Part shown: in pieces, positions 1,628-53,828 of the stretch
Numbering within the stretch: the first letter of the stretch is position 1
How the letters are laid out: the number at the start of each line of letters is the position of its first letter
Assembly: GCF_000004825.1 (NCBI RefSeq)
Contig: NW_008805100.1
Coordinates: 124,001 to 188,000, forward strand
Length of the DNA stretch: 64,000 nucleotides
Reading direction: 5' to 3'
DNA from: Heterostelium album PN500
Taxonomy: Eukaryota; Evosea; Eumycetozoa; Acytosteliales; Acytosteliaceae
The notes under the pieces: generated by a model
Seen by the model: the letters and a program-made list of their open reading frames with translations, nothing else
Told to the model about the DNA's origin: nothing
Database searches by the model: none
Made by a program: the position numbers and the translations under genes

Positions 1628-4600
1628 TTATGAGTTTATTTGATTTGTAGTGTAGATTTTATAGTTACCAGCACCCAATCCTAATAATGGTGGTGAGGAA
1701 TTAACTGATCCATCTGGAGGAAGAGGATCACCTCTCATATCAGGATAGTTCGATACAACCAGTCGCTTTAGATATTTATATCTGAATGGAGAGTCAGGGA
1801 AATTTCTTGGGTCAAAAGATGATAGCACCACAATAGATGTGCCGTCATCGATTTGCATCGTCAATTTACAACCAATCTGTGGTTTGATATAGGTTGTTAT
1901 ACCATTGGCATTGCTAAATGAGTAATCACCACTTTGATACGATACATATTTATCAGTTGCATTTAAATAGATGAAAGCTCCATTACATGATGCATCTATT
2001 TAAGTGTAGAATTAATATTAATATTATTAAAATAGAATTTTGGTGTTATAGTTAATATGTATTTTACTTACACCTAACAATGAATTGTAAATCTTCTTTT
2101 GCAAACGGTTGAACTTGGGAGTAAGAACCAGAGTTGACACCTACATTCCAATTGGAGTTTAGTTGTCTTGGAATTGAACGGCAATAACAAAACCATGAAC
2201 AACTGAATGAAGTGTAAGCGAATGGTGGTATAACATTCGTATTAATTGGATAGGTTTTAGATCCACTTGTTCCATTCCATATTTGTGCTCCCATACATTT
2301 AGATGCTGAAATAAAAAGTGTTAACATATTATAATTGTTTTGTTTTTTTTTTGTTAATGATTAATTAATAACTTACAAAGATATGTAAATTGATAAATAA
2401 AAGGTAGAGAATTTCCAAATCTGAAATCAATGAAACCTTGTTCCGACGGTGGATATTGGAAGGATGATAAACATGCTATCTTGGTGTCACTTATGAATGA
2501 AAGAAGTTGACAGAAGTAACCATCTACCAGAATGGTTGAGTTGCCTGCCATTCCTGCAGGTGGGAAGTTGTATCCGTTTATCACCAATTCGTTGGCTGGT
2601 AGATGTGATGGATGTTTGGAGAAACCAGTTACGGTTGGTGGTGCCCGTTTCATATTGTAATACTGATACATCGGTGTTGGCGTGTAAGATATTGTTATTG
2701 TACATTGATTGATACCACTGAGTACGGGACACACTAGTTTCTGACCGGAAAGTTGACAATTTGTTATAAGAGAGCAAATTCTAATCTGTGGAATTCTGAA
2801 AGACCAATTGTTAATAAAAAAGGTTCCACCCATTGTCGGAACAACCAAATTATTCTCCAGTAGAAAATCTGAAAAGATATCGATTTTAGAGATTACAGGA
2901 GGTGGATAAACTGTTCGGGTAGCCTGATATAAAACCGGTGTTGGAATATAAATAGCAACGGACATATCGCTGTTGACTGTGAACGTTTTGATTTTTCCAT
3001 CCCAGCTGACTGGCAGATTTCTGAGGTAGATTTGGTCGAATGTGCCAACCGGTAGAGTTAGCGTTGAACCTGTCGTTACCCTATCCAAACTATCGTAAAA
3101 CGTTTGAGATGGAGCACCTGGAACATATTGGAAGAATGGACAATTGTATTGGAATACCAATGCATCGTTTGAACTTGTCACTGTATGAATGAAATTGTTA
3201 ACGACCGGAAGAACATTTGGAACTTGGCCAGTGTTGAATGAAATGATATTTGTCATTGTTACATCTACAATATAATTGGCAGCACCACTATAAGCTGAAT
3301 AAGCGAGCGATCCATCCTTTAGAGTATGTGTCAGAGTCACTATGGTGTTTGGTAACTGAAGGTTTGCCGGTTCATTCAATATATTATCGAGATTACTATC
3401 AACGTATAATACCAATTGAATCTTGTATTTATAACGAATTCTGACTTGATCGGATGTCGGATATTCCACTGTACAATTGTCAAATCTAGCATCTAATGGT
3501 TTCATTGTACACGATTGATTGGATGCACTGTTACACCAGCCATAACTAGACAGACTAAATGTTCCATATTGGAGAGTAAGTTTATTTTCGGCACCTGACA
3601 GAATGATACCATTACATCCTTTCCAATTGAATTTCAAAAGACCGACATCAATCAATTTTGTTGCAGTACCAACTTTAAAGTAGATGGTAGTAGGTAAAAA
3701 GTGAGTTGAAATCGTATTGATTGTCAATGAATAACTACCACTGACAATACTGGGTAGATAATAATTTCCATTTGCATCGGATGTTGTAACAGTACTACCG
3801 TTTATCTTTATAACAACACCAGAAATTCCAATTTCACCAATATCTTTAATATTATTTCCATTTAAATCTTCATAAACTGTACCTTGAACATTTATAGCTT
3901 TTTTAGAAAGAAAAATATTCAAGTTAATAAAAATTAGTTTAAAAATATATTTCAGAAAAGTAAATAATTACGCTCATATGAATATTTATATTCTGGATAT
4001 GGAAAATATTTCTTTAAATACATAGATGTCATTGAAATTTGAACAGCTCCAGAACCTGGTGGAATATTACAAACTATTTTAGAACTATCTGATAATTTTA
4101 CTCCACAAGATAATTGATTTGCTAAATATGAATATTTTGAATAAAGTTAGTTATTTAAATTAATTATGTTGGTATTCATTTTCTACTTACTAAATAAAGG
4201 TGAACCAAAATAAAATAATGGAGTATTTAAATATGGACTAAAGAATTCAACAGATTGTCCAGCTTGATTAAGCGAGATCAGAGAACTGAACATTGAAAGA
4301 TATGCTACTTCAATGAGTACATTGGAGACTGGAGTGATTGGTATCTTAGTGTTTGAAGTGGTTTGTAATACAACGGAATCAATACTCTCGGATGAATAGA
4401 ATGTAATTCCAATAGAATTTGTAAAACCATTCAATGATGTAATACTGGTGTTATTCCAACCCATCTTCGTTAGAGTATTTACATCGTATTTACCAACCGG
4501 TAGTGTAAGCATTGTTCCAGTAGGGCTGTATAGTATGACTGGTCTAATCGATGAATACACCCAGTTGAAGAGTCCGAAAGAATCAGAGAATGATTGAGTA

Positions 4601-7600
4601 ACATTGTAAGTCTTGGCATTAACTATCGTATAGAGATTGGGTTGTACTATTTCCAAATAGATATCAAGCAGACCTTGTTTAACAAACAATGAATAGCTAC
4701 CGGTTTCCAAACCAACATTATAGGTGATACCATCAGTTGACGAAGTGTAATAAAGAAAAACACTGAATGGCGGTGGTGACATTTCAAATCCTTCTTTTTG
4801 ACCATTCAAATTACTATCCATATAAAATGAAAAACTAACTTGATAACCAATTTCCATAAGTGAAATATCATTATCTATTGTTAAAATACAGTTAGTTGGT
4901 GACTAAGAATTATTGAAAATAAATAACATGTTAATAATGATATAATAAAGATTGTGGAATTCAACTATTTTTATACTACTTACATAAATATATGATAAAG
5001 GATATAAACAATTTTGAGAATTATAACAAATTCCATAGTTTAGTAAATTAACTTGTCCGTATTGAAGGGTAACCGTTGTAGTTTGGTCGTTTGTCAAATA
5101 ATATCCAACACAACCTTTTCCACTTAATATCCAAACTGGAATGTCAATATGATTGGTTAGAGAAACAATTTCTAACAAATAGTTGTTTAGAGGTGTTATA
5201 TATTGGGAATTGGGTTGAATATTTATACTATAAATATCCTCTGGTATATTTACTGTAAGGGAACCAGTGATTATCTGATAAACGAATTGACGTGAAGGAT
5301 TGGTTGTGGATGTCAAAGTAACAGCACCAGAAACACCCATTTCATTCGATTGATGAATATTATCTAAATTGGAATCTTGAAAAAGAGTAATAATCAAATT
5401 CGAATAGACCACTGTAGATAGAGAATTTGATGGTCTTTCACCAATTACAACTTGAACCGATTGATATCCGTTTTGAATTGGATTGACATTCGTAATGACA
5501 ATGGTTGTTTCATTAACGAATGTATTGTAATAGTTGGTCTTCTGGTTTTGGTAATTGGTGAATTGTATCCAGCAGGTTGCATCTTGTGTTACTGTCGATG
5601 GAATGAAATTGGTACCACCGATGGTTATGCTATTATCGCTTGGTTTGTATTGGTATGAATGTATAGTCGGAGCTTGATATGCAAATATCGTGGTCGTGTT
5701 AACATTGTCACCAGAGACAATAGTTAAATCAAGTGAATATTGGAATCCTTCAGGTACTGGACATTCCATAAACACATTGAAAGAGTAACAATCGATGGAT
5801 ATTGAATCCAATTTGGTCGAGTTGATATCATCGAAAGAACTACCGAATCCACTACCTCGGAATTGCATTAAACCACCGGTGGTTGGAATGAGCGCTGAAT
5901 TTGAGCCAATCGATGGTGCAGAATAACTAAAATAGCTGCTGGATACTGTTGGAACGATATTATTTGAGACTTGTACCGATACATATTGTTTAGATGAACC
6001 TGCACCAAATGGAATGCTACAGCTAATGGAAGTATCAGAGATACTGACAATTGGACATGATGATGTTCCAATCGATACTGAAACCAATGATGAATTCTGT
6101 CCGAAACCTGAACCTTGAACAGATAACAAACCAAAAGGTGTTCCAATACTTGGTGAAAAAGTTGAGATTGTCGGTGGTTGATATGAGAACCTTAATGATT
6201 GAATTCCATTAATAGAATTAATCTTATTTCCATTCATATAAACTGATAAAAAGCTATGATTAAATTCAATTAATTAGTAAATGGAATTATATATTATAAT
6301 GATCAATAAATTAAATAATATTTACAAGTTTGTTCCTGTTCCGGCTGGAATACTACAAATAATAATTGTATGATCAACTTTAATGATTGTTATGTTTTGC
6401 TGAACATCATCAATGTTTACAATTATATTTGAAATAAGATTTCCAAAGTTTTCTCCATATATTGTTATATTACTTCCAGTGGTTGGAATTAAATTTGGAC
6501 TTATTGATTCAATTATTGGTTCTATAGAATTAAGAAATATGAAATTAGTTAATTAGATAAGTTAAACAAAACATATTTTAAACTTACCAAAATAAGAAAA
6601 AATGAATGGATAACTTTGACAATCATAATTATCTGTTGTTGGATCATAAAGTTGAATGGAAAGGTCTACTCCTGATGATGGTGGAACTACACATTTAATA
6701 AATGTTGAATTGATATAGATTGTTTGTAAACATTGATAGTCTCCAATGGATGCCTCTATTCCATGAGAAAAATGATAACCAACTATATCTATTGAATAGT
6801 TGCCACTTGTTGATCCATTGGTTTGAGAGATATAATTGATAATAGGTCCGGTTACATTACACATTTGGTCAATGAATTGATACAGATCATCGGAACGATA
6901 GTTTACCAATTGAACGTCACAAATTCGGTTTCTAAATGTTGCGTATAAAATACCGCTGTATTGCTCGGATAGTCCTGGAATTATCTTTGGCGAGTAATAA
7001 ACTTGTAAATCTGAATCTGAATTGGAGTCATTTCCATTTAGCAGTTCACTTGAATCCACCAGTGACTCTATCAAATCGGTTAGAGTTACCAGAGTGAGTG
7101 GATCACATACCTTTCTTGTAGAATTGGTGAGGTAACATAGTCTGATTTTATCGGTCGGTTGATCTTGGAAAATGATATCGAAATACAACAACAGATTGTT
7201 GGATGACAAAGAATTCAATGGAATCTCCAAAAGTACTTGAATTGCCTGACTGGAGTTAGTGTATGGAGTTGGTGTAAACCATTGTTGTATTGCATTGGTA
7301 ACATTATTAACTTGTTGTTGATTGAGACTATAGATTTGGTAACTCGTAAAATATCCAGGTGTAACAAGTAAATCTATTAAATTGTCATAGGAATAGGTAT
7401 TGACAATTGGTGTTGAGGTTGTTGTAGTTGTTAATCTTCGTTTGTTTTGTACCATTAAATCGAAAAACATTTCACCATTGTAATACAAGATGTTTTGATT
7501 GACTGGAACTTGAAGGGTTGGATCGAAACTAGCATAAAGTGTTTGAATGGTCTGTGCATATTCAACTTTATCCAAAATGGACTGCCACTTTATCATATTA

Positions 7601-10600
7601 TTAGAGTTCATATCACTAAAGAATGCTGAGGTGAAAGGATCCTGAGGACATAGTTTCTCATCATTATTACTATCGATCCAATCCCAAACAGTGGCAGCAT
7701 ACCAGAATGCTGATGGTGGCGGATTATTGGCTGGCATACCCTCCAAATCATAAGCAATAATATTATTATTATTCTCTGGATTTGAAACAAAACATTGATC
7801 TACAAATGATGATTGAACACCATACATTTCCTAAAATTAGTTAATTTAGTTATTAGTTGCTAGTTATTATTTAGTTGTTAATTATAAATTCATCTTACGT
7901 TGATAATAGTTTTAGATATTGCCCATGAAATTCCTTGGATGACAGCATCATCGACTTGAGGTAATGGCGATAATCCGAATGACCGATCAACAATAAACTC
8001 TTTGATTAGATACCAAGTGATTACAAATGCAACTTCATCTTTACAGTTGATGTTGTGAATGTAGAGTTGACCATTTTGGAGTGTTGTGAGTGTGTTTGGC
8101 TGTGCTGGAACCAGTTGAATAGAAACAATATCGGGTAGTAGATATTTTGTTTTGACATACTCTAAGTAATGACCAATGAATGCCATAGGATTGTTAGCAG
8201 GTGTAGTATACTGTAGGTAATTACTAAACATTAGAATATATTGGAATCCATAGTTGAATGGATATGGATTGGTGGCGAGTGTAGTTTCTACTCTTTGGGC
8301 ATTCTCACGGTTACATGGAGCAACAACCTGGTCACAACTATAAACATTGTAACTGTTGTCTTCCAATGCATACAGCTGTTTAACACTGATTGGATTATCA
8401 GTCATTATATTATGTGACCAAGTTTGATCCCATTCCATATGTAAGGACATGGCACGACGATAGATACCCATCTCTACTTGAAAGTGTGATTGCGTGTCTG
8501 CCACTCCATAGGTTCGTGGATAGGTTGAAACAGTCTGATAGTTTTGTCCTTTGTCAATGGAGAATACTTGTTGGATTTCAAAGAGCAGACCGGCAGGCAC
8601 CGGTGTTGCATCGCCAGAGAGAATCTTCATGTGCATTGTTGCCCATGTCATCCAAGGAGGGAAATAGTAACTTCCTTTCGATTGCACTGCAAAAGTATTT
8701 GCAGCCGAATCGATAGGTATCACATTTGAATACCGTGCAACTCTGTTCGAGAAGAAGTTAACGAGATTCGGATGATTTAGACAAGTGTAACCTCCTCCAC
8801 GTTCACCTTGGTGATTATGTCGGTTGAGATCACCCGAACAAAAGATATTATCATAGCGATCCGGTGAGTAAGGTTGAGCGTACATGTTATATACCAACTT
8901 GGAATGATCGGAATCAGCACGATTCGTAAGATCTTCAACGTTCTCTGCAAGATCTACGTCATGCAGAGTATACTCAACATTCGCCATTATCTTTTGATAT
9001 TCCAACGTCTGATATTGTCTTCTCGTTCCACCTAAATCCAAAGTCTGAATGAAAAACGGTCGTTTTGTTGCTGCATTTTGATTGAACTTCTCTACCATCC
9101 GCTCCGAGAGATCTATACCGTTGGTGATAAACGTCGGATTGGTATTTGGAATCATGAAAGCAACTGCATTCGCCGACATCACTGGAACATTCGATTCCTT
9201 ATATTCATTTGTAGTTTTCGAAAACATATCCAACTTTGTAGCTCCTTTCGTATAGAATTCAGACCACCACCAACAATATTGATATAGATTACCTTTTGCT
9301 TTTATTTGATTATCACAATTCTATAAAGAATTTTATAAGTCGTCAAAAGAAATACTATTATTATCACTACTGATTATTACTTACTTTCAAAATTTGTAAT
9401 GTTATAGAATTATCGGTTGTTAATAGATCATCCAATTTCTGAAAGGTACCTTTCACTGCATTGTTTACGACTTGATAGATCATTGGATAGTTCTGTGCAA
9501 TGAATGCAGAGATATAGTTGATTCCGGTGAAGATTGGTGTGTTTGGATCGAATGGACCGAATGTATAGCAAAAGAAATGTTGATTGAGTGTAGCATCACC
9601 CAACCAGAATTGTGACCGGATATCGTAGTATTCGTAGGGCGGATTACCAGGATTACCGTATTTAGTTGGTGGATTCAATCCGTTGTAGGTGAACGCTGGC
9701 CAATACGGTTGAGAATGAGTGATGTGAATGCCAGAACCAGTGACATGATCGTAGATAACAATACCTTTGGTATGACCGAAATCGGAGCCTCGTGAGAATA
9801 TCTTGTGGCCGGCAAGCGGATCGTCCGAGACCAGCACTTTGACACCGTCGTTCGGTCTACGCATACCGTTTTGATCGTTATAGAAGATGTATGAATAACC
9901 GTAGCGAATCTGGTCGAATGTCGCTGCCAGTGGAGAGAGTTCAGCGTTGGTATCTGTCAATCCTTTGTAACGAGCAACACTACGGTCATAGAGATTATCA
10001 ACATAGAGATAGTTGTCTTTCAAATTATCGGGGGTTTTCGAACTGAATTTATATTTGAAGGTGAACCACCAATCGACAGGAGGATTGGTTGCCAACCGGT
10101 TGTTCCTACCTAGACATGACAAACCGTAGAATGACAATGTGATACCATTCGATAGTAAACCCTCACCATACGATACTGTTACAGTAAACTCTGTTTCATA
10201 GGCAGATTTGACGTCACAGGTAATGGTTCCACCAACAACCAAGACATTTTCACATTCATATCGGATTGCATTCTGTGTTATTGGATCAACACCATCAAGG
10301 TAGATAGTCGGTGATACTCCATTGATAAAGTTTGAACCTCTAATTGTTATCGGTGTAACGATGGCACTTGCCGAATTAATATTGATGAACGACGGTGTGA
10401 AACGAGCTAATCTTGGCGATAGAAAGAATATTATCGGTTCGAAATCGACATAGGTAATAGGTATTTTTGTATCGGGAATATTGACACCAACCCATTTCAT
10501 CATAACATCATATTGACCTGCTGCATTGGCAGGTATGGTAACTTGTAACTTTACATAGGCAACCGTTCCAATCATAATATTACTTGATACCACTGGTAAC

Positions 10601-11820
10601 ATATTAACTGGTAGCACACCTGAGAAATAGAATTGTGGTACTTGATTGACACCTCTTGTATAAACAGACATCGATCCACCTGTATTTATAAATATTCTAT
10701 TTGCAGTGATAGATGGATCTTTGATAATAGCGACGCGATTAATAACAAAGTTAGTTGATAATATTATCTTATTGTTACTTACGATAATCAACATTCAATT
10801 GATAGATATCAGCTGGTGCCGGATAGAATGGTAGATTAACAGTGACTTGGTAAACATTTGGAATTGATTCATCAATTTGACAAGTGAATGAGGTATCTGT
10901 TTGAACACCAACCAAATAACAATTCTTACCGTTCATAACAACACCAGGTAATATACCAACACCCATATTGAAACCTAATCCATCGATTTTCAAAGTTGGT
11001 TGGTTAACAAAATCAACAACCGTTATACTTGTTACAGTTGGTTCTATTTAAAGAAAAAAGGGTATTATTAATGATAATTGTTGTTGATAGCTATAATAAT
11101 AATAATTCATAATTATTACTTACGAATTACATTGATCGCAAATACTTTTGGTGGTGAAAATAGATTCAATGTATTTCCTTGAAATATATAGGTATAGGCA
11201 CCGATCGGTAGGTTATTTGGAATGGTTAACAATAGTTTTTGAGCATCGTTTGGATCGGCTTGTGGCGCAATAGGAAATTGATTGAAACCATTGGAAAATA
11301 AAATTGTTTCTATACCTTTTACCACCTCAGCTGTGAAACTAACCGTTGTAGATGGAACCAATTGTAATGGAAATGTTTTTATAACCGGTTCTATATACAA
11401 TCATATTTAGATGTTAAACAATTGTTTATATTTATGAAATGAAATGAAATTTTGTTTACCTTGAATATAAGAAGCTGTTTGTGCACCTAATTTGATATCG
11501 TAGGTACCAACGAAACTCATTGGGCATTCCGCAATCAACTTGTGAATGACACCGTGTCTCGAAATAAAGAGTTGTGAACAAACGATCGGATTGACAAAAC
11601 CATTGATGGTAATGGAAACTAAGAGACTTCCTGGTATATTGTTATAGATACCGATATCCAGCTCGGACTCTACGAAAAACCATTGACTACCAGGAATTGG
11701 ATTGACCTTTTGTGCTGTGGCAACTTTAAATGTTAACTTTGCATCAACAGCAACAAAAAAACCTGTAATTAAAACAAACAACAATATTATTATTGTTGTT
11801 GTTGGTCTTAAAGTAATCAT
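1628..11820 (-). CDS. giant secreted DNase II / IPT-TIG / Cna-B-like multidomain protein, 13 exons, 3109 aa
   Basis: Exons on the minus strand: 11820-11460, 11390-11124, 11044-10793, 10718-9385, 9320-7899, 7830-6588, 6521-6326, 6253-4984, 4902-4191, 4121-3972, 3897-2377, 2305-2072, 1995-1628. All phases match and the total is 9330 bases. Residues 1-27 form a signal peptide. Ig/TIG-like modules fill about 120-490. A complete DNase II domain spans about 493-935. About 935-1540 has no match I know. TIG modules follow at about 1548-1900, with SdrD/Cna-B-like strands showing the pattern D-S-N-L-D-N or D-L-N-G-N near 1990, 2130, 2410 and 2540, and a further TIG near 2830-2900. I see no transmembrane segment or GPI signal, so it is probably released or matrix-bound. 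Most introns are phase 1 and sit at module edges, as expected for a mosaic built by exon shuffling. The likely role is extracellular DNA degradation tied to adhesion; that part is inference. Confidence 0.85.
8730..10122 (-). other. DNase II catalytic domain inside the giant secreted protein
   Basis: The domain covers protein residues about 493-935 and is split by the intron at 9384-9321. Diagnostic blocks of the DNase II family appear in order: a V-D-W start near 507, YNDQ at 573-576, the first HxK motif GHTKG with His at 609, then the paired strand ending H-S-Q-P, a C-x-T-F strand near 677, the second HxK motif DHSK with His at 877, GDLNR near 901, and RGGGYTC at 912-918. Family knowledge: the two HxK motifs form the metal-independent, acid-active phosphodiesterase site, so both catalytic halves are intact. 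The domain is somewhat longer than the usual 350-360 residues, mainly from inserts before the second HxK motif. Confidence 0.88.
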
Positions 11821-34204: not shown

Positions 34205-35428
34205 TTATAGTTTTGAAATATTTGTTTGAATTATACTTTTGGATTCAATTAATCTATCAATATCATCTGATTCGAATCCAAATTTTTTCAATACCGTCAC
34301 TGTGTTGGCACCTTCCACCACCAATTTCTTTGTTGATAGCTGATCGATTTGTTGTTGCTGTTGTTGTTGAATCGATAGTTTTGTTGTATTTTGTACATCG
34401 AAAAGTCTGGGTGCCATCATTACATCGAGACCGTTGTCACCTTTGAAAACCAATTGTCTTGCTGTTGCCTGTGGATGACCTGTCAACTCGTGCATCTCGA
34501 GCACCGGCGCAACACAAGCGTCAGTACCCATAAATATCTGTTCCCACTCATCTCTTGTTTTCTTTGCGAAAATCTCTTTAAACAGCTGCTTCATTCGCGG
34601 CCATTGTGTTTGGTCGGTTTGATCTGGAAGATCGGTCCGCTCCGCCAATCCCATACCCTTCAGCAGCTCGCTGTAGAATGGCCCCTCAATAGCGCCAACC
34701 GATATATACTTGTGATCGAGCGTTTCGTATACCTCATAGAAATGAGCACCGCTATCCAGAGCATTACATCCACGATCGTTATCCCACCATCCGGTTCTTC
34801 CAACTCGCAGCTTATAGATAAAAGTCGCCAGATATGCCGCGCCGTCCATCATGCTGGAATCTATGAGTTTTCCACGACCCGTAGATTTCCGCTCGTAGAG
34901 CGCAAACATGATTCCGAGAGCACACATCATTCCACCGCTTGCAAAATCACCAAGAATGTTCGACGGGAAGAGTGGCGCTTGTCCGCGACGTCCAAGAACC
35001 GACAGTGCTCCGGACAGCGCAATATAGTTGATATCGTGGCCGGCGCGCAGTGCATACGGTCCGGTCTGTCCGAATCCAGTTAGTCGCGCGTAGATCAATC
35101 TCGGTGCCTCCGACATGAGTGACTCTGGCGACAAGCCGAGTTTCTCCATGACGCCAGGCCTGTACGAATCAATGAGAACGTCGGCCTTCTTTGCCAGCGA
35201 TCTCAACACCTCTACACCTTCCTTGTGTTTCAAGTTGATAGCAATCGAGTGTTTTCCACGAGTCAGCTGATCGATTGGTTGAGAAACTATACTATCGCCA
35301 ACGACACGATCCACTCTAATAACTGTCGCACCGAAATCCGCCAAGATCAATCCACAATATGGAACGGGTGCCAAACCTGACATCTCCAAAACAACCAATC
35401 CTTCTAAAGGTAAATTTAAATCTTCCAT
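34205..35428 (-). CDS. alpha-methylacyl-CoA racemase (CaiB/BaiF family), peroxisomal, 407 aa
   Basis: Single exon. The protein starts with the L-E-G-L-V-V-L-E-M-S core, then A-D-F-G-A-T-V-I-R-V-D, which binds CoA in this family. G-H-D-I-N-Y holds His131 and the G-D-F block holds Asp161; their 30-residue spacing equals that of the catalytic His/Asp pair of alpha-methylacyl-CoA racemases. The length fits the family. The last three residues are Ser-Lys-Leu, a canonical PTS1 signal. Family knowledge: the enzyme interconverts 2R- and 2S-methylacyl-CoA so that branched acyl chains can enter beta-oxidation. It is divergent to an acyl-CoA oxidase gene that also ends in SKL, which supports the pathway. 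A polyglutamine run (about 363-369) lies near the C-terminus. Confidence 0.93.
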   Translation of the reverse strand: MEDLNLPLEGLVVLEMSGLAPVPYCGLILADFGATVIRVDRVVGDSIVSQPIDQLTRGKHSIAINLKHKEGVEVLRSLAKKADVLIDSYRPGVMEKLGLSPESLMSEAPRLIYARLTGFGQTGPYALRAGHDINYIALSGALSVLGRRGQAPLFPSNILGDFASGGMMCALGIMFALYERKSTGRGKLIDSSMMDGAAYLATFIYKLRVGRTGWWDNDRGCNALDSGAHFYEVYETLDHKYISVGAIEGPFYSELLKGMGLAERTDLPDQTDQTQWPRMKQLFKEIFAKKTRDEWEQIFMGTDACVAPVLEMHELTGHPQATARQLVFKGDNGLDVMMAPRLFDVQNTTKLSIQQQQQQQIDQLSTKKLVVEGANTVTVLKKFGFESDDIDRLIESKSIIQTNISKL

Positions 35429-35998
35429 TCTCTTAGTAGCAACAAACTATATAATATTTACAAACAAATTACAAAGTATAAATAAATAAAAAAATGAAAA
35501 CAAAAAAGTAAATAAATCAAACGAAAATATAAAAAAATACTATCTAAAATTGAAAACAAATAAACATATCTAATAATAGTATAGCTAACACTTGTACATT
35601 GAACTACTTGTGTGTGTTTATTTGAATATTTACAAGTAATTTGTTGTTTTTTTTTTAATCTTGAAATCTAATAATAAATAATAAATAATATGTTTAAATT
35701 ATTGCTAATATTATACAAATAATATAAAAAAGATATTATTTATTATTGTTATTATATTTTAGGTGATTATCGACCCACTTGTTTACATCATTTGCAAACT
35801 GAATGAAAAAATCAAGATACATGTTTGAACATTAACTTTATAACGCTTTGAATTTCCTTTTTTGCAAACAAGATTTTTAAAAAAAAATGATTTTGATCAA
35901 ATTTAATTTAACTACTTTAGTATTAAATTCAATTTCATTTTAATTTGTAATTTTATTTCTACTATTTTATATTTGTATTTGTAATTATATTTATATCT
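35429..35998. promoter_or_regulatory. shared divergent promoter of the racemase and acyl-CoA oxidase genes
   Basis: 570 bases separate the two start codons. The DNA is AT-rich with T- and A-runs, TATA-like TATAAATAAATAAA near 35477 and CTTTATAACG near 35848. No gene is seen. Joint expression of the two peroxisomal enzymes is inferred from the arrangement only. Confidence 0.5.
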
Positions 35999-38117
35999 AT
36001 GTCTCAACAGCAACAACAACAAGTAGTAGTACATCCAGATCTCTTAAAAGAACGATCGAAAACAAGTTTTGATGTACCAACTTTAAATAGATTTATAAAT
36101 AACAATGATCCAACTGTTATCGATTTAAAGGTAAAATAAAATACAACATTTAAATATCAAAATTATAGATTATAATTAACAAACTTTTAAATAATAGAAA
36201 AAAATAAGAACAGAATTTCTTGCTGATCCAATATTATCTGATCATCCAGAGTATGTAAATTTCCTATCGAGAGAAGATCAATTTAAACGTGCCGTAGAGA
36301 TCAGTGAGAGAGTGATAAAGATCAAGAGAAAGTTGGGTATTATCGATTCGACCGGTATCGAATTCTATCGTGAACTCTACCAAGAGATTCCACTGATCTT
36401 GCATGACGTCGTCTTTGTTGGATGTATGCGTTCGTTGGCCAGTGAAGAACAACTAGCGGAATGGCTACCAAAGGCGTTGAACTACCAGATTATCGGTGCC
36501 TACGCACAGACCGAACTCGGTCACGGTTCCAATGTTCAGGCGCTAGAGACAACCGCTCACTACTTGGCAGAATCCGACGAGTTTGTTTTGAATTCACCGA
36601 CACTGACCTCCTCGAAATGGTGGATCGGTGCACTCGGTCGTATCTGTACGCACGCCGTTGTATTCGCGCAGCTACACCTCAAGGACAAAGATGGAAAACT
36701 GGTGAATCACGGTCCACATCCATTCTTGGTTCAGGTTCGTTCACATGAGCAACACCAACCGATGAGCGGCATCACCGTTGGCGATATCGGACCGAAGCTC
36801 GGTTACTCCACCGTCGACAATGGATTCATGAGATTGGATCACGTCAAGATTCCAAGAAAGAACTTGTTTGCGCGATACGCACAGGTCACCAAGGAAGGAC
36901 GTTACGTTCCTCCACCTCATCCACGTCTTGTCTATGCCGGTATGGTAGGTGTTCGTGTCTACTTGGTTGGCGATTCTTTCTCTGCCATTTGCCGTGCCGT
37001 TACTGTTGCCGCGCGTTACTCTGTGATTCGTCGACAGTTTGGACCGTCGGGAAAAGAGGAAACTCAGGTGCTCGACTACCAGAATCAACAGGCGCGAATC
37101 GTTCCATCGATAGCTGCTGCCTACGCTTTCCTCTTTGTTGGACGTCGTCTCTCTGACATGTTCTCCAACGTGATGTACGCAGCGAAATCCAGAAAAGATA
37201 CCACTGACCTGCCAGAGTTACACGCACTCTCCTCCGGATTGAAAACGACCATCACCTACATCACCTCGAAATGCATTGAGGATGCGAGATTCTCGTGTGG
37301 AGGACACGGATACAATCAGGCATCGGGATTGGTTCGTCTCTACAACAACTATCTTCACTTGGTGACAGCCGAGGGTGAGAACAATATCCTTCCACAACAG
37401 ACTGCCAGATTCCTGTTGAAGGAATACAAGTCGGTGATGGTCGATGGCAAGACCAAACTCGGTGAAACTACACAGTATTTAGTGGACGAACAAAACGCAC
37501 CAAATACCCTCACTGCTCTATTGGCTGCCACTGGAAAACAATGGAGTGATCCAGCTATTTTGGTGAGAGTATTTGCTCATCGTTCTGCATTCTTGATTGC
37601 CCGACTTGCCCGATTGATTCAAGAGGGATTGGGAAGTGGTAGAACCATGCAAGACGTTTGGAATTCACTCAATGTCGATTGCATCCGAGTGAGTGAAGCT
37701 CACTCACAACTGTACATTTTGAATTCATTCGCTACACAGTTGTCGCTTGTCCCGTTGGATGCACGTCCAGTACTCGTTCGTCTCTGTCAGTTGTACGCAC
37801 TGAATAACATCGAGAGAAACAGCGGTGAATTCCTCATCGATCAATTCATCAGCCAAGATCAAATTGAAGAGATCTCCAAGTTTATTCTCAACCTGTACGC
37901 TCAACTCCGTCCAGATATCATCGGACTGGTCGATACCTTTGATGTTGCCGATCACACTCTCGGTAGCTCCTTGGGTCGTTACGATGGACAAGTCTATCCA
38001 GCACTCTGGGAATGGGCCAACAAACATCCACTCAACACCTCTGACGTTGGACTTTCCCAATTCTTTAAAAACATTAATAATAACAATAATAATTCTGTAC
38101 CAACTTCAAAATTGTAA
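35999..38117 (+). CDS. peroxisomal acyl-CoA oxidase, 683 aa
   Basis: Exons 35999-36130 and 36198-38117 join in phase 0. The architecture is that of ACOX: N-terminal helical lobe, the A-Y-A-Q-T-E-L-G-H-G-S block (about 145-155) lining FAD, a beta domain to about 270, then the helical oxidase lobe. R-Q-F-G near 323 contacts FAD, and the catalytic base is Glu436 in T-A-E-G-E-N. G-G-H-G-Y is at about 412-416. The C-terminus is Ser-Lys-Leu (PTS1). Family knowledge: the enzyme oxidises acyl-CoA to trans-2-enoyl-CoA and gives H2O2. Pairing with the racemase gene suggests it acts on 2-methyl-branched substrates, but straight-chain use cannot be excluded. The start ATG (35999) precedes a short polyglutamine run. 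Confidence 0.95.
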
Positions 38118-51414: not shown

Positions 51415-53828
51415 TTAGTTTTTATAGCTTCGTTTTAAAAGTAGAGAGGTGATATATTCTCCTCTAGATGAATTCGAACATGATAGCAACGATGCTTCAT
51501 ATATATATTTATGTTGAATATCAATTTTGAGGGATTTACTATTTTCACTCTTGTGATTATAATATCCACCAATAACAAGTGATTCCATTGATTTTGGTAA
51601 AGGTATTCTTTTGTTTTTAATATCATCATCTGAAATCTGCATTTGATCATTAAAGTTATCGAAATTGCAAGCAGAAAGTTGGGAACTATCATGTAGTATT
51701 ATTCTTTGAAGTGAAGATGGAAGAACATCAATACCAATCATATGACTATAAGAGTTTAATTGTAAATCTCGAAGAGATTGTGGTAATACTCCACTATCCA
51801 AATACCGATTAAACGATCCAAAATGTAACATTTCAAGATTGTGTGGTAGATCTTCTATCTCTAGTCGTTGATTGTAGCCAAGCATTGTTAATGACATTAG
51901 CGATTGAGGTAACACTCCTTTTGATAGTTTTTCATTGAATCCATTTCCCAACACCAATGATAAAAGAGAATTTGATAGTGTTCCTCGAACTAGTTTTTGA
52001 TTGAAACCCTTACCAAATGTTAAATGTAAGAGTGAATGTGGAAGTACACCTATATGTATTTGTTGATTGAAATTTAATCCAAATGATAATGATTTCAGAT
52101 TTGGAGGGAGTGAATTAGGTTCCAATGGTCGATTAAATTCGTCACCAAATTTTAATTCAGTGATATTGGTTGAGTTGTTTATGAATGTAGTATTCACATT
52201 GAAAGTAATTGAATGATTTTCGGTTATAGTTTCAATATACTGTTGCAATAATTGTTGCAATGATTCTCTATTCTTTGGACTCGGCTCCAACAATCGATTA
52301 ATAAAGTCAATCAATTGTTGTGAATATCTGCATTCTGAAATGATAATTTCACCGGTAGATTTGAATAGTTGATGATAACTACTATCTTCTTGATGACTAA
52401 TCAATTTAAATATTCAAAAATAACTCGTTAATATCTGATTGATAATAATGTATTAAAAATGACTATCGAGTATTTACCAACATAATAATCTGAGAATCGT
52501 TGATCCAATTGAAAAGATGTCACACGATGGAGCATATTCTCTCCTCTTTGCTTCCTAATTTTATTATTATAAATTTAGTTAAAATCTATATGGAATATCA
52601 ATTAAATGGAATTTACATACTGGTGAAATATAACCAAATGTTCCACGAGTTGCTTTTTCAAGTGTGCTTGGATTTAAATCAAAAATGGTTGGATCTGTTA
52701 CTTCATTTTTGATCTTTAACTCACTTATATCAGGAATTTCTACGTTTGTATCTCGATCTTGAGTGATTGTTGATTTATCAATGAATTTACAACATCCAAA
52801 ATCACCAAGTATCAAACTCCAACCATCAATGAATATATTTGATGGTTTGATATCACAATGAACAATTCCAAGCCTATCAAGATCCAAAAGAATATTGAAA
52901 AGTTGTGAAATATATTCTCTAATATTTGATTCTGTAAATATTCTATATTTAATATTCAATATAAAATGGTTATTTCTTTTATTCTACTTTCATATCTCGA
53001 TTTATGTTAAAATAAATTTATGCTACTTACTGGTCATGATCAGCCAAATATTTATACTCTTGGTCAAGATCACCACCAAGACAATATTTTGTAATGATAT
53101 GAAATATTTGATTGTGTGTATCATCATGATAGTCAAAAAGCTGAACAAATTTTACATTACCTTTGAGTAATTCCATTGCTTTGATTTCATTCAATGCTCT
53201 TATATAATTTTTATCATCTTTTTCTTTAACTTTATCTGTTTCCTCCACTGTTTGTTTTTCGGTTTTTTTCTCTGTTTCTTTTTCTTTAGCTTTATAGTTT
53301 ATCTTTTTATAAACATACTTTTTGAATTGGTTTTGTTAATTTTACGATTGTCAATTGATTAATTTAATGCCGGAATGATCTTACCATTCTTTTATCAATA
53401 TCACACACTAAGTATACTTCATTGAGGCTGTTTAGGAATTTTGATATTGAATGATATCGTTTGTTATTAATGATATGTGTTTGTTTGAAATAGTCAACAT
53501 TGTGTTTGAATAGACTTTCTGTATTATTGATTGTGTATGATTGTGATTTATTTAATTGAAGTGTGCATATAGATATAGAATCTTGGAGTGAATGTAATTT
53601 TATAATTATTAAATGATAGTGAGGATCTACATTCTCTGGTATTACAATTACATTATTACGACTATTAATATTTCTCATTGATACGATCTCTCTCTGTTGT
53701 TCATCATTATTATTTAAATCGTGATTCTCATTCTGAAATAAAACTATAAATCTACATGTTCTTCCTACAGATGTAAATTCCAAGATACTTCTTCCATTTA
53801 ATTTTCTATCTGTTTTAAGGAAAGTCAT
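51415..53828 (-). CDS. protein kinase with C-terminal FNIP repeats, 703 aa
   Basis: Exons 53828-53385, 53317-53031, 52942-52621, 52554-52478 and 52396-51415 total 2112 bases. Residues 1-140 are an N-terminal domain I do not recognise. The kinase starts near 140. The V-Y-K-K block at about 150-153 supplies the ATP lysine (Lys152), interrupted soon after by a Lys/Glu-rich insert. Catalytic loop H-C-D-I-K-P-S-N has Asp274 (Cys replaces Arg of HRD). Asp291 is in D-F-G, and G-T-F-G-Y-I-S-P|E is the activation segment end. About 415-640 are FNIP-type repeats (F-N-x-x-L...L-P-x-S-L-x-x-L). FNIP repeats are a dictyostelid hallmark. All catalytic residues except the HRD Arg are present, so an active Ser/Thr kinase is likely. 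Confidence 0.88.

Follow-up and report, generated by a model that had tools for sequence, protein, structure and literature searches.

The gene PPL_11593 of Heterostelium album PN500 occupies positions 1628 to 11820, on the minus strand, of a 64,000-nucleotide stretch of contig NW_008805100.1 (positions 124,001 to 188,000 of the forward strand, assembly GCF_000004825.1), referred to here as the window. Its product carries a DNase II module within an array of TIG and SdrD/Cna-B-like modules and, as judged from sequence, belongs to a family of giant modular proteins that has expanded in this lineage. The initial annotation of the window had proposed an adhesive extracellular nuclease; its architecture, export signal and predicted catalytic competence are retained here, but the large family and a conserved linker next to the nuclease had been missed. 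The frame, the architecture, both HxK motifs with their conservation, and the recurrence of the cassette are read directly from the DNA.

A profile search of the 32.9-Mb H. album genome gave 65 DNase_II matches at E <= 0.001, and none was found at this threshold in 14 control genomes. Merging of matches less than 3 kb apart yielded 48 DNase II loci, the weakest of which lie near the cut-off and some of which may be assembly duplicates. With 48 loci in the genome, a one-off architecture was rejected. TIG matches were scored for 150 of 729 candidates, and for 131 of these 150 a DNase II locus lies no more than 8 kb away; the zone so defined covers at most 2.5% of the genome. Pfam searches found DNase II together with 7-11 TIG stretches, without any splice, in all four long frames (1,886-2,587 amino acids (aa); L009, L011, L012 and a piece of L014). 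TIG and DNase_II also occurred together in eight of ten further single exons, the exceptions being L001 and L027; in L027 the TIG modules sit in other exons. Because uninterrupted frames and single exons hold both domains, the fusion is real and frequent, and for the scanned loci the possibility of TIG genes that are neighbours by chance was rejected.

Gene model and modules of PPL_11593

On the minus strand of the window, a splice-aware search joined 13 exons into a single open frame that begins with the ATG at 11820 and ends with the stop at 1628, in line with the 13-exon frame of the initial annotation; all 12 introns have GT-AG ends. Introns 7 and 8 allowed alternative ends, of which the GTAAAT/GTAAGT donors and the TCATAG/TCTTAG acceptors were taken, giving a joined translation of 3,112 aa. 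The length of 3,109 aa and the residue numbers His609 and His877 given previously are thereby replaced by 3,112 aa, His612 and His880, a splice difference of three residues. The public record of PPL_11593 has 3,099 aa and departs from our model at intron 3; there the acceptor chosen here is favoured by the paralogue PPL_05196 (51% identity over the region searched), which contains the corresponding stretch. The title of the record reads only IPT/TIG domain-containing protein; Pfam TIG, DNase_II, SdrD_B and TIG_SUH are already annotated there.

When Pfam was run on the joined translation, DNase_II (PF03265) scored 87.7 bits against a cut-off of 23 (E 1.1e-24, two stretches), TIG 106.1 against 20.9 (three stretches), SdrD_B (PF17210) 31.9 against 29.7 (one stretch) and TIG_SUH 30.5 against 24. 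CarboxypepD_reg remained below its own cut-off in the window protein (20.6 against 32.3). Home-made hidden Markov models (HMMs) detected seven TIG-like modules, two of them N-terminal to the nuclease, and two strong (residues 1984-2030 and 2412-2469) plus two weak SdrD/Cna-B-like stretches, in agreement with the many such modules noted before. In a hydropathy scan the N-terminus was the sole strongly hydrophobic window of the protein, which supports the signal peptide proposed earlier, and no transmembrane segment was predicted. The product is therefore expected to enter the secretory pathway, with a destination outside the cell or in the phagosome. The features of the gene are as follows, i-E being the independent E-value.

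1628..11820, minus strand: whole gene PPL_11593, 13 exons, 3,112 aa (splice-aware search and public record)
11460-11820, 11124-11390, 10783-11043, 9385-10718, 7899-9320, 6588-7830, 6326-6521, minus strand: exons 1-7
4984-6253, 4191-4902, 3972-4121, 2377-3897, 2072-2305, 1628-1995, minus strand: exons 8-13
11740..11820, minus strand: signal-peptide-like N-terminus, residues 1-27 (the sole stretch of the protein to exceed the hydropathy threshold; cleavage site guessed)
10835..11041, minus strand: TIG-like module, residues 211-279 (home-made HMM, i-E 3.4e-4)
10171..10380, minus strand: TIG-like module, residues 410-479 (home-made HMM, i-E 6e-7)
8688..10119, minus strand: DNase II module, residues 497-952 (PF03265 and PDB relative 5i3e/5unb; one intron, 9321-9384)
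9766..9774, minus strand: first HxK motif, H612-T-K614 (alignment)
9706..9717, minus strand: HSxP motif, residues 631-634 (kept in the DNase II alignment)
8898..8906, minus strand: second HxK motif, H880-S-K882 (alignment)
8820..8834, minus strand: GDxNR motif, residues 904-908 (also present in Burkholderia DNase II, where the PDB alignment is weak)
6847..8687, minus strand: conserved linker, residues 953-1543 (core modelled; perhaps zincin-like, without HExxH)
6646..6846, minus strand: TIG module, residues 1544-1610, also TIG_SUH (Pfam and home-made HMM)
6232..6519, minus strand: TIG module, residues 1631-1702, containing intron 7 (best Pfam TIG stretch and home-made HMM)
5968..6174, minus strand: TIG module, residues 1722-1790 (home-made HMM)
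5716..5895, minus strand: TIG module, residues 1815-1874 (home-made HMM)
5248..5388, minus strand: SdrD/Cna-B-like module, residues 1984-2030 (home-made HMM, i-E 1.6e-20)
3707..3880, minus strand: SdrD_B module, residues 2412-2469 (PF17210 and home-made HMM)
2468..2638, minus strand: TIG-like module, residues 2826-2882 (home-made HMM)

By profile and motifs the nuclease module is a DNase II. Known members of this family are single-domain proteins of about 360 aa, and the H. album genome itself encodes a canonical one of 360 aa (L001). H612-T-K614 and H880-S-K882 line up with both HxK motifs of L001, and the genomic DNase_II matches at the window gene hold the codons of the first HxK (profile 7-180) and of the second (255-324). 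Both motifs thus lie within DNase II matches, contrary to the outcome that would have refuted the initial annotation, and the catalytic competence predicted previously is supported. Among solved structures, Burkholderia DNase II (5i3e/5unb, E 2e-6) lay nearest in sequence and had no competitor up to E 0.1; the displayed alignments span the region of the first HxK and, in a weak stretch, that of GDxNR. A structure model over the module (predicted local distance difference test score, pLDDT, 32) was uninformative on the two-lobed phospholipase-D fold expected of a DNase II. Both HxK motifs, HSxP and GDxNR are common to the window module and the DNase II family (PF03265; human DNase II alpha and beta, Burkholderia thailandensis). 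The window module differs in being longer, about 455 aa with inserts, and in lying inside a protein of 3,112 aa. The definition of DNase II by an N-terminal and a C-terminal HxK follows PMC4148230.

Three other loci of the window may be mentioned. A plus-strand gene with a signal-peptide-like start (374-1529) converges on the DNase II gene, their ends being about 100 bases apart. An FNIP-repeat protein with five stretches is encoded at 51415-52413, and the FNIP-repeat group appears among the expanded groups in PMC4334915. An acyl-CoA oxidase frame (36198-38117) lies in a 2-kb stretch of 45% G+C, with neighbours at 28-35%, and adjoins a CoA-transferase family III frame (34205-35446).

The linker between nuclease and TIG array

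A conserved region of about 590 aa, unnamed in Pfam, separates DNase II from the downstream TIG array. Neither Pfam nor the PDB yielded a sequence match to it. In topology, a model of its core, of low confidence, resembles zincin metallopeptidases (thermolysin-like, zinc aminopeptidase), and zincins filled the first 13 rows of a second-look structural comparison with this model. Unlike zincins, the linker has no HExxH: none was found in the linkers of 28 protein models, some of which are two models of one gene and some of which lack part of the linker. The sole HExxH in the 28 models belongs to an L013 model and sits well downstream, at residue 3010. Since the core model resembles zincins and HExxH is missing, the linker core may be a zincin-like, dead peptidase; the probable role of the region is that of a connector, any peptidase activity having been lost.

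The linker accompanies the nuclease: of the 24 linker loci found, 23 have a DNase II match no more than about 3.5 kb away. The exception, at C3:124678-125511, has no adjoining DNase II match, and TIG matches are close by (C3:126-129 kb).

Catalytic-looking and dead-looking branches

DNase II modules were aligned for 36 members, 34 of them from the H. album genome, one from Acytostelium and one from Cavenderia, and a tree was built with IQ-TREE (LG+G4, 360 columns). The tree and the motif table left out L018p (a near copy of L017m), L041, L030 (the P0002 gene), P0004 (the L024 gene) and L027, in which both HxK motifs are intact by reading. Both HxK motifs were present in 18 of the 36 modules, L001 included, and four more have the first HxK, their second region not having been retrieved. 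The first histidine is absent from the remaining 14; in 13 of these the second HxK is absent too, and in L039 the second region was not retrieved. These fourteen dead-looking modules formed one branch (support 99), and twenty-one catalytic-looking giants, including the window gene, formed another (support 100), with canonical L001 placed between them on a long branch. The window gene, PPL_05196 and L029 clustered together (support 100). The family therefore has, as far as motifs and tree indicate, a catalytic-looking branch and an apparently dead one, which the tree does not order by age. For the paralogues that lack these histidines, a retained function in binding or regulation is probable.

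Several loci showed irregularities. Contig C23 (11 kb; L018, 3000-11158) looks like an inverted near copy of a C3 stretch (L017, 13000-22999), with two DNase II loci in each; C23 and C3:13-23 kb may reflect a recent duplication or an assembly duplicate. C27:317429-362337 holds, at intervals and in short frames, five matches to the C-terminal portion of the DNase II profile, and one piece (L041) has GDSNR. In L010 and L015, of the dead branch, the long frame stops and resumes in another frame (about 4,106-4,187 and 4,311-4,375), reflecting either a short intron or decay.

Ratios of nonsynonymous to synonymous substitution (dN/dS) were obtained as simple Nei-Gojobori (NG86) counts on few changes, several pairs being looked at and uncorrected for multiplicity. 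In the recent active pair L026/L025 the ratio was 1.37 in the DNase half and 0.21 in the TIG half of one exon (Fisher p 0.0008, rounded counts). The halves of a second recent active pair, L020/L024, gave 0.94 and 0.77 (p 0.62), and a third short pair, L025/L031, gave 0.74 undivided. Downstream TIG exons gave 0.28 (L026/L025) and 0.69 (L020/L024). The DNase module of the dead branch had ratios of 0.15-0.35 in four pairs. At most, these values hint at diversification or relaxation of the nuclease half of active copies once they have duplicated.

The initial annotation had suggested looking for orthologues in other dictyostelids, and the fused architecture does recur there. Acytostelium P0005, which falls in the catalytic-looking set, has both HxK motifs and the same domain order as the window protein, to which it matches in two stretches, the second displayed in part only. 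Cavenderia P0014 is a DNase II giant without HxK motifs, in the dead-looking set. In word-limited protein searches, which cannot show absence elsewhere, the dictyostelid DNase II giants that came up all belonged to Heterostelium, Acytostelium or Cavenderia, with none from D. discoideum; one such search also returned bacterial-type TIG proteins.

Possible roles of the giant nucleases

TgrB1 and TgrC1 are dictyostelid surface-type allorecognition proteins with TIG modules; the window protein has TIG in common with them but possesses an enzyme module and no predicted membrane segment. The amoeba family also resembles reported expansions. IPT/TIG genes number 9, 43, 35 and 50, and colossin genes 5, 33, 22 and 7, in D. 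discoideum, A. subglobosum, P. pallidum and D. fasciculatum respectively (PMC4334915, Table 2). These IPT/TIG and colossin/Cna-B expansions are like the present family in their modules and in their expansion outside D. discoideum. The IPT/TIG orthogroup is described there with EGF-like and C-type lectin domains, not with DNase II, and the main text of that paper, on the Acytostelium genome, showed none of the words DNase, deoxyribonuclease and nuclease. Trichinella spiralis has 125 predicted DNase II-like genes, with the HKD motif reported in only one (PMC4148230), an expansion like the amoeba family in size and in having many members without catalytic motifs. By contrast, many amoeba members keep both motifs, and TIG or peptidase-like arms go unmentioned in the available text on Trichinella. 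Deoxyribonuclease II activity is an enriched Gene Ontology (GO) term common to dictyostelid lineage-specific expansions, one of several such terms, and positive-selection signals are given for more than half of the stage-biased genes of these expansions (Luna and Chain 2021, PMC8535579). The architecture had been put forward as undescribed. In the literature covered, mostly open-access, no prose description of a TIG-DNase II fusion was found, five gene names of the family were absent, and 'dictyostelid' and 'DNase II' never occurred together; the domains are nevertheless on the public record and the expansion is in print as a GO term. The protein can be described as a known enzyme in a new architecture, and that GO term is the only printed mention found of the expansion to which it belongs.

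In the reading that we consider rather probable, PPL_11593 encodes an acid DNase that is carried on an adhesive scaffold, is secreted or phagosomal, and acts on DNA of bacterial or other foreign origin. The modules run in the order TIG, DNase II, conserved and perhaps zincin-like region, then further TIG and Cna-B-like modules. After entry into the secretory pathway, the two HxK motifs would form one pseudodimeric active site, cutting DNA in acid and without metal as known DNase II enzymes do. Through the TIG/Cna-B arms the enzyme would be anchored at a surface, within a matrix or inside the phagosome, and its substrate would be bacterial or other foreign DNA. The giant might instead be purely digestive, delivered to phagosomes with none released, where it would degrade the DNA of eaten bacteria while the TIG arms served stability or bacterial binding. 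We regard this as possible, though not the likelier account: DNase II has a lysosomal role and the window protein shows only an N-terminal export signal, but a lysosomal hydrolase is not usually so large, nor does it usually bear long TIG/Cna-B arms. On the side of this reading, DNase II is active in weak acid and is secreted in saliva (PMC11430429). That the family serves conflict with other amoebae or microbes, diversifying quickly and with dead paralogues as decoys or binders, appears improbable. DNase II loci are clustered and include recent duplicates, the nuclease half of L026/L025 exceeds its TIG half in dN/dS (1.37 against 0.21), and positive selection is signalled in stage-biased genes of lineage-specific expansions (PMC8535579). 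The halves of L020/L024 are alike, however, the dead branch is under ordinary constraint, and the few NG86 changes over several uncorrected pairs weaken the contrast.

Remodelling of the amoeba's own DNA traps, which the initial annotation had also raised, is very unlikely. Sentinel-cell DNA nets are destroyed by added DNase I, but the nets are described for D. discoideum, added DNase I is the only enzyme named in the text available (PMC4773522), and the searches above, with their word limit, returned no relative from that species. We give least credence to a gene-model artefact in which separate genes were wrongly joined. The gene model relies on 12 predicted introns, but in other parts of the genome the order TIG-DNase II-TIG is encoded by single uninterrupted frames, and the fusion is therefore not a product of the gene model. 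The same order in Acytostelium P0005 and the intron of the DNase module, placed alike in L030 (the P0002 gene) and about alike in L029, also speak against wrong joining.

A more speculative extension, which we hold to be doubtful, is a conserved Acytosteliales cassette uniting two ancient hydrolase folds, DNase II and a dead zinc peptidase, in TIG giants. One branch would be a weapon or feeding nuclease diversifying at its DNase half and the other would have turned both enzymes into binding modules, the two forming a paired effector/pseudoenzyme system for foreign or rival DNA.

Textbook DNase II is a single-domain enzyme; in H. album it is the central module of giants that are surrounded by 131 of the 150 scored TIG matches of the genome. 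With active-looking and apparently dead branches side by side, the family is therefore well suited to studying the tethering of an acid nuclease, the purpose that dead nucleases serve and the handling of extracellular DNA by social amoebae.
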